The translations under genes and the position numbers were made by a program. DNA of 64,000 nucleotides. Source: Sphingomonas sp. SORGH_AS_0879 (GTDB taxonomy: Bacteria; Pseudomonadota; Alphaproteobacteria; Sphingomonadales; Sphingomonadaceae). How positions within the stretch are numbered: position 1 is the first letter of the stretch; every line of letters starts with the position of its first letter. The notes below the pieces were generated by a model. It did no database searches, was not told the DNA's origin, and was given only the letters and a program-made list of their open reading frames with translations. Of this stretch, positions 26,567 to 49,890 are shown one piece after another. The DNA lies in assembly GCF_030819175.1 (NCBI RefSeq), contig NZ_JAUTBJ010000002.1, positions 3,805,001 to 3,869,000 on the forward strand, read 5' to 3'.

Positions 26567-28759
<2,193 letters not shown>

Positions 28760-28788: not shown

Positions 28789-28919
28789 GCCCTCCCCCAT
28801 CCCCTCCCGCCTGCGGGAGGGGTGCGTTACCGGGTGATCGTCAGGGCATTACGTCCGGGAGATTCCAAACGCTGCACCGGGCACGCCCCTCCCGCAGGCG
28901 GGAGGGGATGGGGGAGGGC
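28789..28919. repeat. Inverted palindromic repeat after uvrB
   Basis: CCCCTCCCGCCTGCGGGAGGGG is itself a palindrome. It is extended by ccatcccct on one side and repeated in inverted orientation at 28,884-28,919. The whole can fold as two hairpins or one long one and sits between convergent uvrB and the PRC-barrel gene, so it may terminate both. Confidence 0.75.
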
Positions 28920-29447: not shown

Positions 29448-29978
29448 ATGCGTCGCCTGTCCCTTGCCCCCCTTGCCCCGACGATGGTCGCGGCTGCCGC
29501 CCTGTCGGGCTGTATCCCCGCCACCCCGCGCCCCGAGGCGCCGCCGCCGGTACGTCACACGCCCCAGCCCCTGCCGCCGACGCCGCGTCCGGTACTCGGC
29601 TCGGACTGGCGCGACTGGCCGTTGACGCCGGGCGACTGGCGGTATCAGCGGACCGCGCAAGGATCGGGCGCCGCGTTCGGCACGGAGGGCGTCACCCGCC
29701 TGTCGCTGACCTGCGATCCCCGCACCCGGCAGGTCCGGCTGAGCCGCCCCGCCTCGATCGCGGGAAGCGTCACCATCCGCACCTCCAGCACGACCAAGGT
29801 CCTCGCCGCCCAGGCGGTCGCCACGGGCGCGGAGATGGTGCTGACGGCCAACGACCCGTTGCTGGATGCCATGGCGTTCAGCCGGGGCCGGTTCACGATG
29901 GAGCAGCAGGGCCAGGTCCCGCTGGTCATCCCCGCCTATGCCGAGATCGGGCGGGTGATCGAGGATTGCCGGGGCTGA
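29448..29978 (+). CDS. Putative lipoprotein
   Basis: A 176-residue protein with a lipoprotein signal and lipobox (AALSGC), then a Pro-rich linker, and a domain containing WRYQRTAQGSGAAF. I do not recognise a named family. It is probably anchored in the outer membrane or periplasmic face. It is divergent from the PRC-barrel gene. Confidence 0.75.
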   Translation: MRRLSLAPLAPTMVAAAALSGCIPATPRPEAPPPVRHTPQPLPPTPRPVLGSDWRDWPLTPGDWRYQRTAQGSGAAFGTEGVTRLSLTCDPRTRQVRLSRPASIAGSVTIRTSSTTKVLAAQAVATGAEMVLTANDPLLDAMAFSRGRFTMEQQGQVPLVIPAYAEIGRVIEDCRG

Positions 29979-30121
29979 GGAGCCGATGTTCGGCGGCGCA
30001 AGATGGTCGGCCAAACATCGTTGCATTTCAAGTCTTGTTTATGCGCGTCCGACTACGCACATTGTAATGGCGTTCTTCAAAGGGGCGCGTTGGCTATCCA
30101 CTAGCGAAAGGAGGTGATCCG

Positions 30122-30178
30122 ATGTCTCATGGTTCAGCAATGGGGTCGGTTCAGTTCGTTCGGGGGACCGGCTTCTGA
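30122..30178 (+). CDS. 18-residue peptide MSHGSAMGSVQFVRGTGF
   Basis: The ATG follows a maximal Shine-Dalgarno (GGAGG ending 7 nt upstream). The peptide has no membrane segment. It could be a functional small protein or a ribosome-loading leader for the structured RNA. Confidence 0.5.
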   Translation: MSHGSAMGSVQFVRGTGF

Positions 30179-30293
30179 CATCGATGGGCGTGATTCGGGG
30201 GGTATCCTCCCCCAATCAACGGTCGCGCCTGATGTCATGAGGCCCACATGGTCTCCCGGGCTGGAGCTCTCCGGCCGCTGACCATGTTTAGGG

Positions 30294-30334
30294 GTTGCCG
30301 GGGCCGTCGCGATGACGTCCCGGCAGCCTCTTTT
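30294..30334 (+). terminator. Intrinsic terminator of the structured RNA
   Basis: GTTGCCGGGG (30,294-30,303) pairs with TCCCGGCAGC with two wobble pairs, followed by CTCTTTTCATTT. Confidence 0.75.
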
Positions 30335-30369
30335 CATTTGGGGGCAATCCTGCCGCCATCGTGAGCGGC

Positions 30370-31641
30370 TCAGGGCTTGGGCGAAGTAGGGTCCTGCGTC
30401 ACCAGCCGCAACGGCTTGTCGCCCGGCACCAGCAGCGAGGGCACATCCTCACCGGCGCGCAGTAACACCTGATCGAGCGGAATCGCATCGTCGCTCTCGC
30501 CCGCGATGAAGGCCTGCACCAGTCGCTCGCCCTTTTGCGGCACGAAGCCCGCCGGAATCACCATGGGTCGCCGATTCATCGCCGCCAGCCAGTCGGGACG
30601 CCCCTTCACCATGCGGGTTTCGGGGTGATAGACTTGCAGGTCGACCGCCCCGGCATATTGGCCGACCGTCATGGGATGCTCACCGTCGAACAGCACGACC
30701 GATCGCGCCACCGTCCTGGCTGCCAGAGCACGACGCGCCAGCCCGTTGGAACCGCCCATCAGCGGCCCCAGAATCGTTTGATCGATGGTCAGGGGATCGA
30801 TACCCGTCTTGGCCATCAGCCGCGTGGCCATCCAACGTTCCTTGGCGTCGTCCGGCCCGTCAATTGGTTGCTCGGTGACATGGCTGAAACCGACATAGAC
30901 GAAGAATTTGGCCTTGGGGTCGGCGGCCAACGCCTGTGCCAGATGATTGGCCTGCGCCTCTTCACGCCGGGCGATGCTCTCCGTCCGGCCAGTCGGCTTG
31001 CCCCGCTCCTCCTCCGTCTGTTCATAGCTTAGTGGTCGATAGCCCAGCGCCAGCGACTGGCGAACAAAATCGCCGAAGACGGGATCATGCGTATAATAGC
31101 CCGTCCTCTGTGTCGGATAGCCCTGCTTGGTCAGCTTCGACATGGCGACACCCTTGTCGCCGACCATGAAGGTTTCTGCCGCCAGGACGGAATAGCCCAG
31201 CGGTCGAAGCGCCCGCGCCACCTCCAGCGCGAAGGCACGATCGCGTGGGAGTCCGTGATTTTCGTTGAGAATGACCACACGGGTCTTGGCGGCACGCGCA
31301 ACGATCTCGGAAATCGCATCCCGCAAGATCGCCCCCGCCACGCGCTCCGCCATGGCCTTGGCCTCCGCGTCCTCGGCAGGTGACGGCTCCGGATCGACCG
31401 GCTCGGCGGTCATCAGCGCGTACAGTTCCGCCCATTGATCGTGGACAAAGCCAGGCTTTGGTTTGCCCGCCGCATCGAAAGCCAGTGGACGCAATGCCTC
31501 TGCCGCGTCCAGATAACGACCGGTATCGAGCCGATCCCCCGCAGCGCTGGCGGCCACGAAATCCGCCTTGCTCGGCCCGTCCTGCGCCATCGCGGCGGTG
31601 GGGAGCATCATCAACACCACCGCCGCCGCGCGCGCACTCAT
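30370..31641 (-). CDS. Secreted ChaN/EreA-like hypothetical protein
   Basis: A 423-residue protein with signal peptide (AAAVVLMMLPTAAMA). Around residues 115-150 it has VVILNENHGLPRDRAFALEVARALRPLGYSVLAAETF, in which the 'NENHG...E' arrangement resembles ChaN and erythromycin-esterase-like (TIKI/TraB superfamily) proteins that place a conserved Glu-His pair at the active site. Activity is unknown. It overlaps the xpaC-like gene by 4 nt (ATGA), forming the last gene of a telA operon. Confidence 0.6.
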   Translation of the reverse strand: MSARAAAVVLMMLPTAAMAQDGPSKADFVAASAAGDRLDTGRYLDAAEALRPLAFDAAGKPKPGFVHDQWAELYALMTAEPVDPEPSPAEDAEAKAMAERVAGAILRDAISEIVARAAKTRVVILNENHGLPRDRAFALEVARALRPLGYSVLAAETFMVGDKGVAMSKLTKQGYPTQRTGYYTHDPVFGDFVRQSLALGYRPLSYEQTEEERGKPTGRTESIARREEAQANHLAQALAADPKAKFFVYVGFSHVTEQPIDGPDDAKERWMATRLMAKTGIDPLTIDQTILGPLMGGSNGLARRALAARTVARSVVLFDGEHPMTVGQYAGAVDLQVYHPETRMVKGRPDWLAAMNRRPMVIPAGFVPQKGERLVQAFIAGESDDAIPLDQVLLRAGEDVPSLLVPGDKPLRLVTQDPTSPKP

Positions 31642-49459: not shown

Positions 49460-49813
49460 CAGGAAAGTGGGGAGCTTCTGTTGCCCGGTGCTCCCCGTAC
49501 CGCTGGATTCCCCTTCTGTTGCCCGGTGGGGTCCGACCGCGCTATTTTGGTGTAATGTCAGGCCGTGAGGCCCTCAATTACGCCGCAATCGCGAGTGCTT
49601 CGTTATCGTTGGCACTTGTGAGTATGGGCCGTTGCGGTGGTCCCATTCCGAACGAAAACAGCGCTTTTCAACACACGTCGATCCTGGTTCGGCCCCGTCA
49701 GAAACGGTGTCCAAGTACACCACCTTTTATGGTGGAGCCGCCGGGTACTGCCCCCGGGTCCGCTGCGTCTATTACTCGCCGCAGTTTATCGTCATAGCCG
49801 GGTGAAACCCGGC
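49460..49813 (-). ncRNA. ssrA: tmRNA, circularly permuted two-piece form
   Basis: Rescues stalled ribosomes by trans-translation. On the minus strand the acceptor piece comes first: it ends GGCGGCTCCACCA at 49,730, with a GGCAGTACCCGG-type T-arm. A 33-nt spacer (49,697-49,729) follows. The coding piece starts GGGGCCGAACC at 49,696, and its GGGGCC pairs with GGCUCC of the acceptor. The tag frame GCC AAC GAT AAC ... TAA (49,613-49,578) encodes ANDNEALAIAA. Two tandem stem-loops with the same ACCGGGCAACAGAAG loop follow near the 3' end. This gene order is the known alphaproteobacterial permuted type. Exact ends are estimated. Confidence 0.93.
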
Positions 49814-49820
49814 ACGGATG

Positions 49821-49849
49821 GATATAGGAAGCCGAACGACTTTACGCAA
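49821..49849 (-). promoter_or_regulatory. Likely sigma-70 promoter of ssrA
   Basis: On the minus strand, TTGCGT (-35; 49,849-49,844) and TATATC (-10; 49,826-49,821) are separated by exactly 17 nt. Predicted start is near 49,813. Confidence 0.65.
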
Positions 49850-49890
49850 ATGCCTTTCGCTCGCCCCATTTTGGGTCCATGGAGGCCTGC

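Follow-up and report, generated by a model that had tools for sequence, protein, structure and literature searches.

A structured RNA with an extended Shine-Dalgarno sequence and a mini-ORF in Sphingomonas: a remote homologue of CC2171 and candidate ribosome-gated riboregulator

Organization of the locus

The window, that is, the whole 64,000-nucleotide stretch of Sphingomonas sp. SORGH_AS_0879 DNA that was analyzed, contains a structured RNA element located between two protein-coding regions. The upstream gene (29448-29978, +) encodes a 176-aa protein with no Pfam family, and the downstream ORF (30370-31641) is convergent with the RNA. At this position, a sequence-only reading had proposed a structured RNA that carries a mini-ORF, an extreme Shine-Dalgarno sequence (SD) and a terminator of its own, with a convergent gene downstream, and these claims are supported by our analysis. 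A probable promoter (30028..30063, +) contains the motif CAAGTCTTG (30029-30037), which overlaps a -35 box, TTGTTT (30035-30040), followed after 17 nt by the -10-like box CACATT (30058-30063). A leader hairpin, P0 (30070..30088, +), lies 5′ of the SD. Folding of this leader averaged -14.5 kcal/mol versus -8.6 for shuffled sequences, with at most 5% of shuffles folding better in 21 of 29 loci; in the window's own copy the folding was not significant (24% of shuffles better). The intrinsic terminator (30290..30334, +) consists of a stem (30290-30330) and TTTT (30331-30334), and a terminator-like hairpin was found in 185 of 198 loci compared to 32 of 594 shuffles. Together, the putative promoter and the covarying terminator would bound an RNA of ~265 nt. 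Two further features were noted in the window. A large near-perfect inverted repeat (28789-28919) follows an ORF ending at 28759, and an unrelated microRNA model hits this repeat on either strand; an alphaproteobacterial tmRNA with the tag ANDNEALAIAA is located at 49504-49853 (-).

The extended SD, GAAAGGAGGTGATCC (30106..30120, +), is complementary to 15 nt of the 16S rRNA 3′ tail and is separated by a single G (30121) from the ATG at 30122, just as the sequence-only reading had described. This exact 15-mer is present in a single copy in the searchable genome. No 16S gene of the organism itself turned up in the searchable assembly, and the tail was therefore checked elsewhere with a 53-nt 16S 3′ end, ending GGATCACCTCCTTTCT. 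It matched 209 of 237 plasmid records at ≥99%, with Sphingomonas paeninsulae among the 40 matching records listed; these records presumably carry an rRNA operon, in a collection that lists no RNA genes. The 34-nt block starting at the SD does not vary among the 23 Sphingomonas-type loci that contain it (one further locus, L024, is cut by a contig end, and a second copy, L025, differs), and in members with CCAGTG the complement to the 16S tail reaches 17 nt. A 16S fragment or a misassembly was rejected because the match is to the complement of the tail and ends after 15 nt, and because the locus has a conserved fold of its own. The ORF that follows (30122..30178, +) encodes the 18-codon peptide MSHGSAMGSVQFVRGTGF and ends in TGA at 30176-30178.

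Fold and covariation

The best fold of the window's copy (-136 kcal/mol, z -5.4) joins the ORF to the 3′ arm through long-range helices; these enclose an apical hairpin, and the terminator comes after them. Of the "three hairpins, the last with a T-tract" described earlier, the terminator stem with its TTTT stands, and the count of three is too simple. The 5′ strand of P1 (30128..30138, +) comprises codons 3-6 and is partnered by 30277-30286, while that of P2 (30144..30149, +) is partnered by 30271-30276, with 96.0% of cells paired. P3 (30161..30168, +, partner 30251-30258) has 99.1% of cells paired and shows one-sided changes only. The last codons, adjoining the stop, form the 5′ strand of P4 (30171..30175, +, partner 30239-30243), in which three of five pairs show two-sided changes, as do all eight pairs of the apical hairpin P5 (30195..30223, +) and 10 of 17 pairs of the terminator. 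The 3′ arm (30247..30286, +) can also form an alternative hairpin, CATGGTC (30247-30253) with GACCATG (30280-30286), in competition with P1.

The structure assessed across 29 Sphingomonas-type sequences combined P1 and P2, taken over from the fold of the window and the consensus of the short form, with helices from an RNAalifold consensus. In this structure 95.9% of cells were paired, versus 39-53% with the partners slid, and 21 pairs had two-sided changes, carried by P4, P5 and the terminator. None of 500 shuffles reached any of these measures, one control being biased in favor of the helices because they came from the RNAalifold consensus of the same sequences. Covarying stems, which the sequence-only reading had named as support to look for, are thus present, and the RNA structure is well supported. 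P1 is invariant in the 29 sequences and is therefore neither supported nor refuted by covariation there; it occurs in the window's best fold and in the short-form consensus. The RNAalifold consensus of the 29 sequences lacks P1 and P2 and pairs the SD with ORF codons instead. Covariation in the short form was weak, with its count of two-sided pairs equaled in 163 of 500 shuffles.

Pairing between the initiation region and the stretch before the terminator was examined across clades in the 184 loci for which a terminator had been called. Codons 2-7 were complementary to this stretch in 29 of 32 CC2171-like loci (null 66/640), 77 of 80 sphingomonads (null 569/1600, inflated by similar motifs) and 11 of 23 other loci (null 62/460). 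It was weak in the MSS-type rhizobial group (8/25 versus 72/500) and in Bradyrhizobium (2/7 versus 9/140), and was seen in one of 17 Rhodobacterales (null 29/340). In the Rhodobacterales an anti-SD before the terminator pairs with the SD itself in 16 of 17 loci (null 82/340). The pairing is thus built from different sequences in different clades. Pairing of an anti-SD with the SD was considered as a general lock and rejected, since it is clear only in Rhodobacterales; a CACUUCC match occurs in some short sphingomonad forms, and 31 of 80 sphingomonads score ≥6 versus 372 of 1600 in the null.

Distribution and relationship to CC2171

By blastn, the element was found in 24 of 25 genomes of the genus, its own included (the sole missing genome is 84% complete, and a contig end truncates one match), and in none of 16 genomes of other families. 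Pattern searches reached further. Within the family, 243 of 298 genomes and 84 of 96 genera carried the block from SD to start with up to 3 mismatches, and 218 of 298 genomes had the exact start-block pattern. In a draw across the phylum, the SD + NTG pattern occurred in 29 of 51 alphaproteobacterial genomes versus two of 149 others (counted by hand from the listing), and 19 of 20 loci fetched from this draw have ORFs of 14-27 codons; one locus of the draw (L234) has an 80-codon ORF and looks unrelated. The exact SD-start pattern was present in 28 of 190 genomes of a class draw in which most families are represented by one or two genomes. Scanning named genomes gave at least 119 loci with the element, and among the 80 titles listed, 76 are alphaproteobacteria, three are labeled only as Proteobacteria and one is a Gemmatimonadetes MAG. 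All counts are without phylogenetic weighting, with clades and ORF ranges set after inspection. As judged from these sequence matches, the element is common, not universal, in alphaproteobacteria. The sequence-only reading had made its claim depend on conservation beyond close strains, and the family- and class-level matches go far wider than that. A mobile element was rejected, as blastn gave no plasmid or phage match. The copy in the contig labeled Gemmatimonadetes MAG (L093, 7832-7852) points to wrong binning or transfer.

The element had previously been thought to fit no described family. However, the Rfam model RF01867 (CC2171, a Caulobacter sRNA, typed as "Gene; sRNA" in the Rfam search output) gave the window a score of 29.4 bits (E 0.00016, 421 bases), which does not reach the gathering cut-off of 75 bits. 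Six other loci of the genus scored 29.6-40.1 bits, and a second copy in one genome (L025 in G010) scored 68.9 bits. With Caulobacter as the positive control, 39 of 190 genomes of the class draw matched at E 0.001 and seven of 190 scored above the cut-off. An RNA gene that is present in most genomes of one large family and common in the class thus rarely reaches the Rfam cut-off. A second match in the window's own genome (C2:3724075, 34 bits) was rejected as false, being within a coding gene. Detection was reciprocal. A model built from 38 short-form sphingomonads (R1) scored the window at 110.6 bits and matched all 40 sources offered (E ≤0.011), which had come from RF01867, blastn or the block pattern and so partly via the same block, with 15 of the 40 matches spanning ≤115 bases, chiefly of the 5′ part. 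Nine of 10 CC2171-like sources scored 33.9-48.5 bits with R1, and L059 scored 20.0.

The likeness to CC2171 lies in the 5′ block CAAC..GAAAGGAGGUGAUCC-NN-UGUCUCAU, in the terminator hairpin, in the GUG or AUG mini-ORF of its members and perhaps in the pairing of codons 3-5 with the stretch directly before the terminator. In the window, the GAAAGGAGGUGAUCC block is found at its fixed spacing before AUG/GUG-UCUCAU. The stem of codons 3-5 with the pre-terminator stretch occurs in the best fold with a different sequence; it is invariant in the genus and absent from the RNAalifold consensus. The window RNA differs in being longer, adding P0, P2-P5 and the alternative 3′ hairpin. Kinship is well supported, and we regard the element as a remote homologue of RF01867 that falls below formal membership. 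In this reading it is a small RNA gene within an alphaproteobacterial superfamily to which CC2171 also belongs. In G010, the CC2171-type second copy (L025, 1502-1653) lies beside a Sphingomonas-type copy, and two other genomes (G195 and G051) also show a second, CATTG-type match.

Literature on RF01867/CC2171, as represented by the excerpts available, assigns no function to the RNA. MH_s33 of Mesorhizobium huakuii 7653R, related by its annotation as RF01867, was identified by RNA-seq as a 215-nt transcript, and no function is given for it in the available text (PMC5596092). A table for Rfam 15 lists one added covarying pair for RF01867 (PMC11701678), and no mention of the RNA was found in the available parts of PMC5521070, PMC5082802, PMC11005374 and PMC5107571. 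Schrader 2014 reports translation for two of the ncRNAs predicted by Landt 2008, without naming them (PMC4117421). Two other systems bear some likeness. The rnTrpL/peTrpL RNA of Sinorhizobium meliloti is also a small alphaproteobacterial RNA with a translated mini-ORF, but it is a leaderless trp attenuator with a functional 14-aa peptide, whereas the window RNA has an extreme SD (PMC10117765). Extended-SD sites of Staphylococcus aureus likewise form a long SD-aSD helix towards the start codon, but in ordinary mRNAs of another phylum (PMC13009471).

The mini-ORF, its context and a possible role of the ribosome

Across the collected loci, 192 of 193 distinct ORFs are 14-36 codons long, where 0.38 would be expected from shuffling beyond codon 6. 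In sphingomonads, every one of the 82 distinct ORFs is 18-20 codons long (TAA 47, TGA 27, TAG 8), while the other frames stop anywhere, and all 17 Rhodobacterales ORFs have 18 codons. All three stop codons occur across the sphingomonad and Rhodobacterales ORFs. Selection on the ORF as an ORF is therefore well supported. An invariant stop T in sphingomonads was dropped as an observation, because that set of loci had been picked by stop position. An outlier in Azospirillum (L159, 6757-6777) has the same SD and start followed by an ORF of at least 59 codons encoding a signal-peptide-like sequence, and is perhaps a different gene.

The encoded peptide was assessed by the synonymous share of single-base codon differences, with the expectation taken as uniform non-coding change. 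This share was 0.24 versus 0.26 expected in sphingomonads (57 ORFs), 0.23 versus 0.30 in CC2171-like 25-codon ORFs (10 ORFs), 0.18 versus 0.25 (4 ORFs) and 0.22 versus 0.20 (5 ORFs) in the MSS-type, and 0.21 versus 0.19 in Bradyrhizobium (6 ORFs), with three of these groups holding only 4-6 sequences and pairs being non-independent. The conserved peptide that the sequence-only reading had hoped for therefore did not emerge in five of six groups, which show no clear synonymous excess; Rhodobacterales are the exception (0.36 versus 0.28, 17 ORFs). Since the bases compared are also held by RNA pairing, and the pairs compared are non-independent, the comparison counts against strong conservation of the peptide without excluding it. 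Rhodobacterales keep most of LERGVGT and Bradyrhizobium keeps most of KRCHLAGIAR; by eye, peptides of different clades have nothing obvious in common past the first residues. In five of six groups the ORF has been kept and its amino acids seemingly have not. A conserved ORF length with a mostly unconserved peptide suggests that it is passage of the ribosome, not the peptide, that matters.

By tblastn with neighbor proteins, two clades proved to have a constant gene upstream of the element, and in some clades a downstream gene recurs. A homolog of the window's upstream gene precedes the element in the same orientation in 84 of 86 sphingomonad loci, and a Vut_1 transporter gene is upstream in all 17 Rhodobacterales loci. 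Because the upstream gene is constant in each, the element is taken to be inherited with this neighbor in sphingomonads and in Rhodobacterales, the neighbor differing between the clades, and it may be co-transcribed from the upstream gene. Downstream, a co-directional class IV aminotransferase gene is found in 36 of 86 sphingomonad loci and a co-directional RF-1-domain gene in 13 of 17 Rhodobacterales loci. The latter lies 180-317 nt from the SD in nine loci (L095, encoding 140 aa, and L098, L100, L112, L147, L179, L182, L197 and L201) and 740-1135 nt from it in four. In the 23 genus loci (L001-L023) the downstream ORFs fall into clusters of at most four. Gene calls by codon-position GC placed a co-directional gene downstream in 108 of 189 loci but misassigned the strand of the ORF upstream of the element in the window, and naive calls over 201 loci gave a noisy distribution (++55, +-48, --45, -+36).

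These neighbors bear on whether the element might, in some clades at least, act on the downstream gene as a leader or attenuator, a leader being one of the options raised by the sequence-only reading. The co-directional RF-1-domain genes, nine of them within 320 nt of the SD, and the aminotransferase genes favor it, and it is possible for Rhodobacterales and for part of the short-form sphingomonads, in which the next gene is often co-directional. It is unlikely for the window's copy because the downstream gene there is convergent; a constant co-directional gene downstream was not found among the varied genus loci, and the constant neighbor is upstream. Overall, we consider a leader role, even in some clades, improbable. 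A mini-mRNA, made for its peptide and with an RNA structure that does no more than tune translation, would account for the strong SD, the conserved start and stop, the peptide motifs kept in Rhodobacterales and Bradyrhizobium and the synonymous excess of the former. However, the 57 sphingomonad and 10 CC2171-like ORFs show no synonymous bias, the peptides of different clades share nothing obvious, and much of the RNA lies outside the ORF and is structured, which together make this reading unlikely in our judgment.

The remaining alternatives start from the SD. A ribosome decoy, capturing 30S subunits with its extended SD and lowering initiation elsewhere, is suggested by the 15-nt and, with CCAGTG, 17-nt complementarity to the 16S tail, but a pure decoy requires neither a fixed stop nor a fixed ORF length, and we consider it improbable. 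The SD-like block might instead act as a sponge for small RNAs with anti-SD (CCUCC) loops, and rhizobia have such sRNAs, with SmelA075 and SmelA099 carrying CCUCCUCCC loops (PMC3927594). Such a sponge would leave the start codon, the fixed ORF length and the stop unexplained and is very unlikely. The same conserved start and stop stand against a guide or checkpoint for maturation of the 16S rRNA 3′ end, to which we give almost no weight, even though the complementarity spans most of the free tail.

Passage of a ribosome that remodels the RNA is the simplest account of a kept start, a kept stop and a free peptide. We tentatively favor, with somewhat less than even confidence, a translated riboregulator that is gated by the ribosome, with the ribosome as its ligand and the peptide mostly a by-product; transcription in this organism, translation, switching and any target are what we infer for it. 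The maximal SD and the start codon at the 5′ end would let ribosomes load despite the strong structure. In the long-range helix P1-P4, the mini-ORF would make up the 5′ strand, with the stop at the end of P4. Because the ORF is laid out in this way, translation would unzip the helix and end at a set place, freeing the 3′ arm for refolding, while without ribosomes the ORF and the 3′ arm would tend to remain paired.

Thermodynamic modeling of the 29 sequences is consistent with such a switch. In the free RNA the mean probability was 0.44 for P1 and 0.10 for the alternative hairpin, and with a ribosome at the stop it was 0.04 and 0.83, respectively. In the free RNA, P1 exceeded 0.5 in 14 of 29 sequences and was absent in one (L018). 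When a single ribosome footprint was slid along the RNA, the alternative hairpin peaked at the stop (0.82, above 0.5 in 25 of 29), falling to 0.55 two codons past it and 0.12 ten codons past; a second maximum of 0.91 occurred with the footprint at codon 10. The model thus predicts that a ribosome at the stop would flip the 3′ arm into its own hairpin in the window's genus. An initiating ribosome is not supported as the trigger, since in the model it opens P1 and the alternative hairpin does not form; the modeling supports a terminating ribosome. The switch as modeled belongs to the Sphingomonas long form and is not class-wide, because the alternative hairpin belongs to that form.

A broader version is possible but more doubtful: a class-wide device that keeps ribosome entry, ORF length and exit, not the peptide, and reports translation capacity as a ribosome-liganded switch, with each clade rebuilding its own lock. 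The clade-specific locks would be CAUGGUU:GACCAUG, CAUUGUC:GACAAUG or SD:CACCUCC. RF-1-domain genes are of the kind that includes ribosome-rescue factors (hydrolases), and if the class-wide reading is true, the position before such a gene in Rhodobacterales would tie the device to ribosome state. An ORF kept for the passage of ribosomes rather than for its product would make the element a natural sensor of ribosome availability, and would caution against taking a conserved short ORF as proof of a conserved small protein.

The region 5′ of the SD also differs between clades. About 30-60 nt 5′ of the SD, Rhodobacterales have TTGACA (14 of 17) and, after it, a dyad resembling ACACAAAATCTGTG that may be an operator; sphingomonads often have ACAAGnCTTG instead. 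The latter is present in 57 of 86 sphingomonad loci; the window carries TCAAGTCTTG and is outside the 57.
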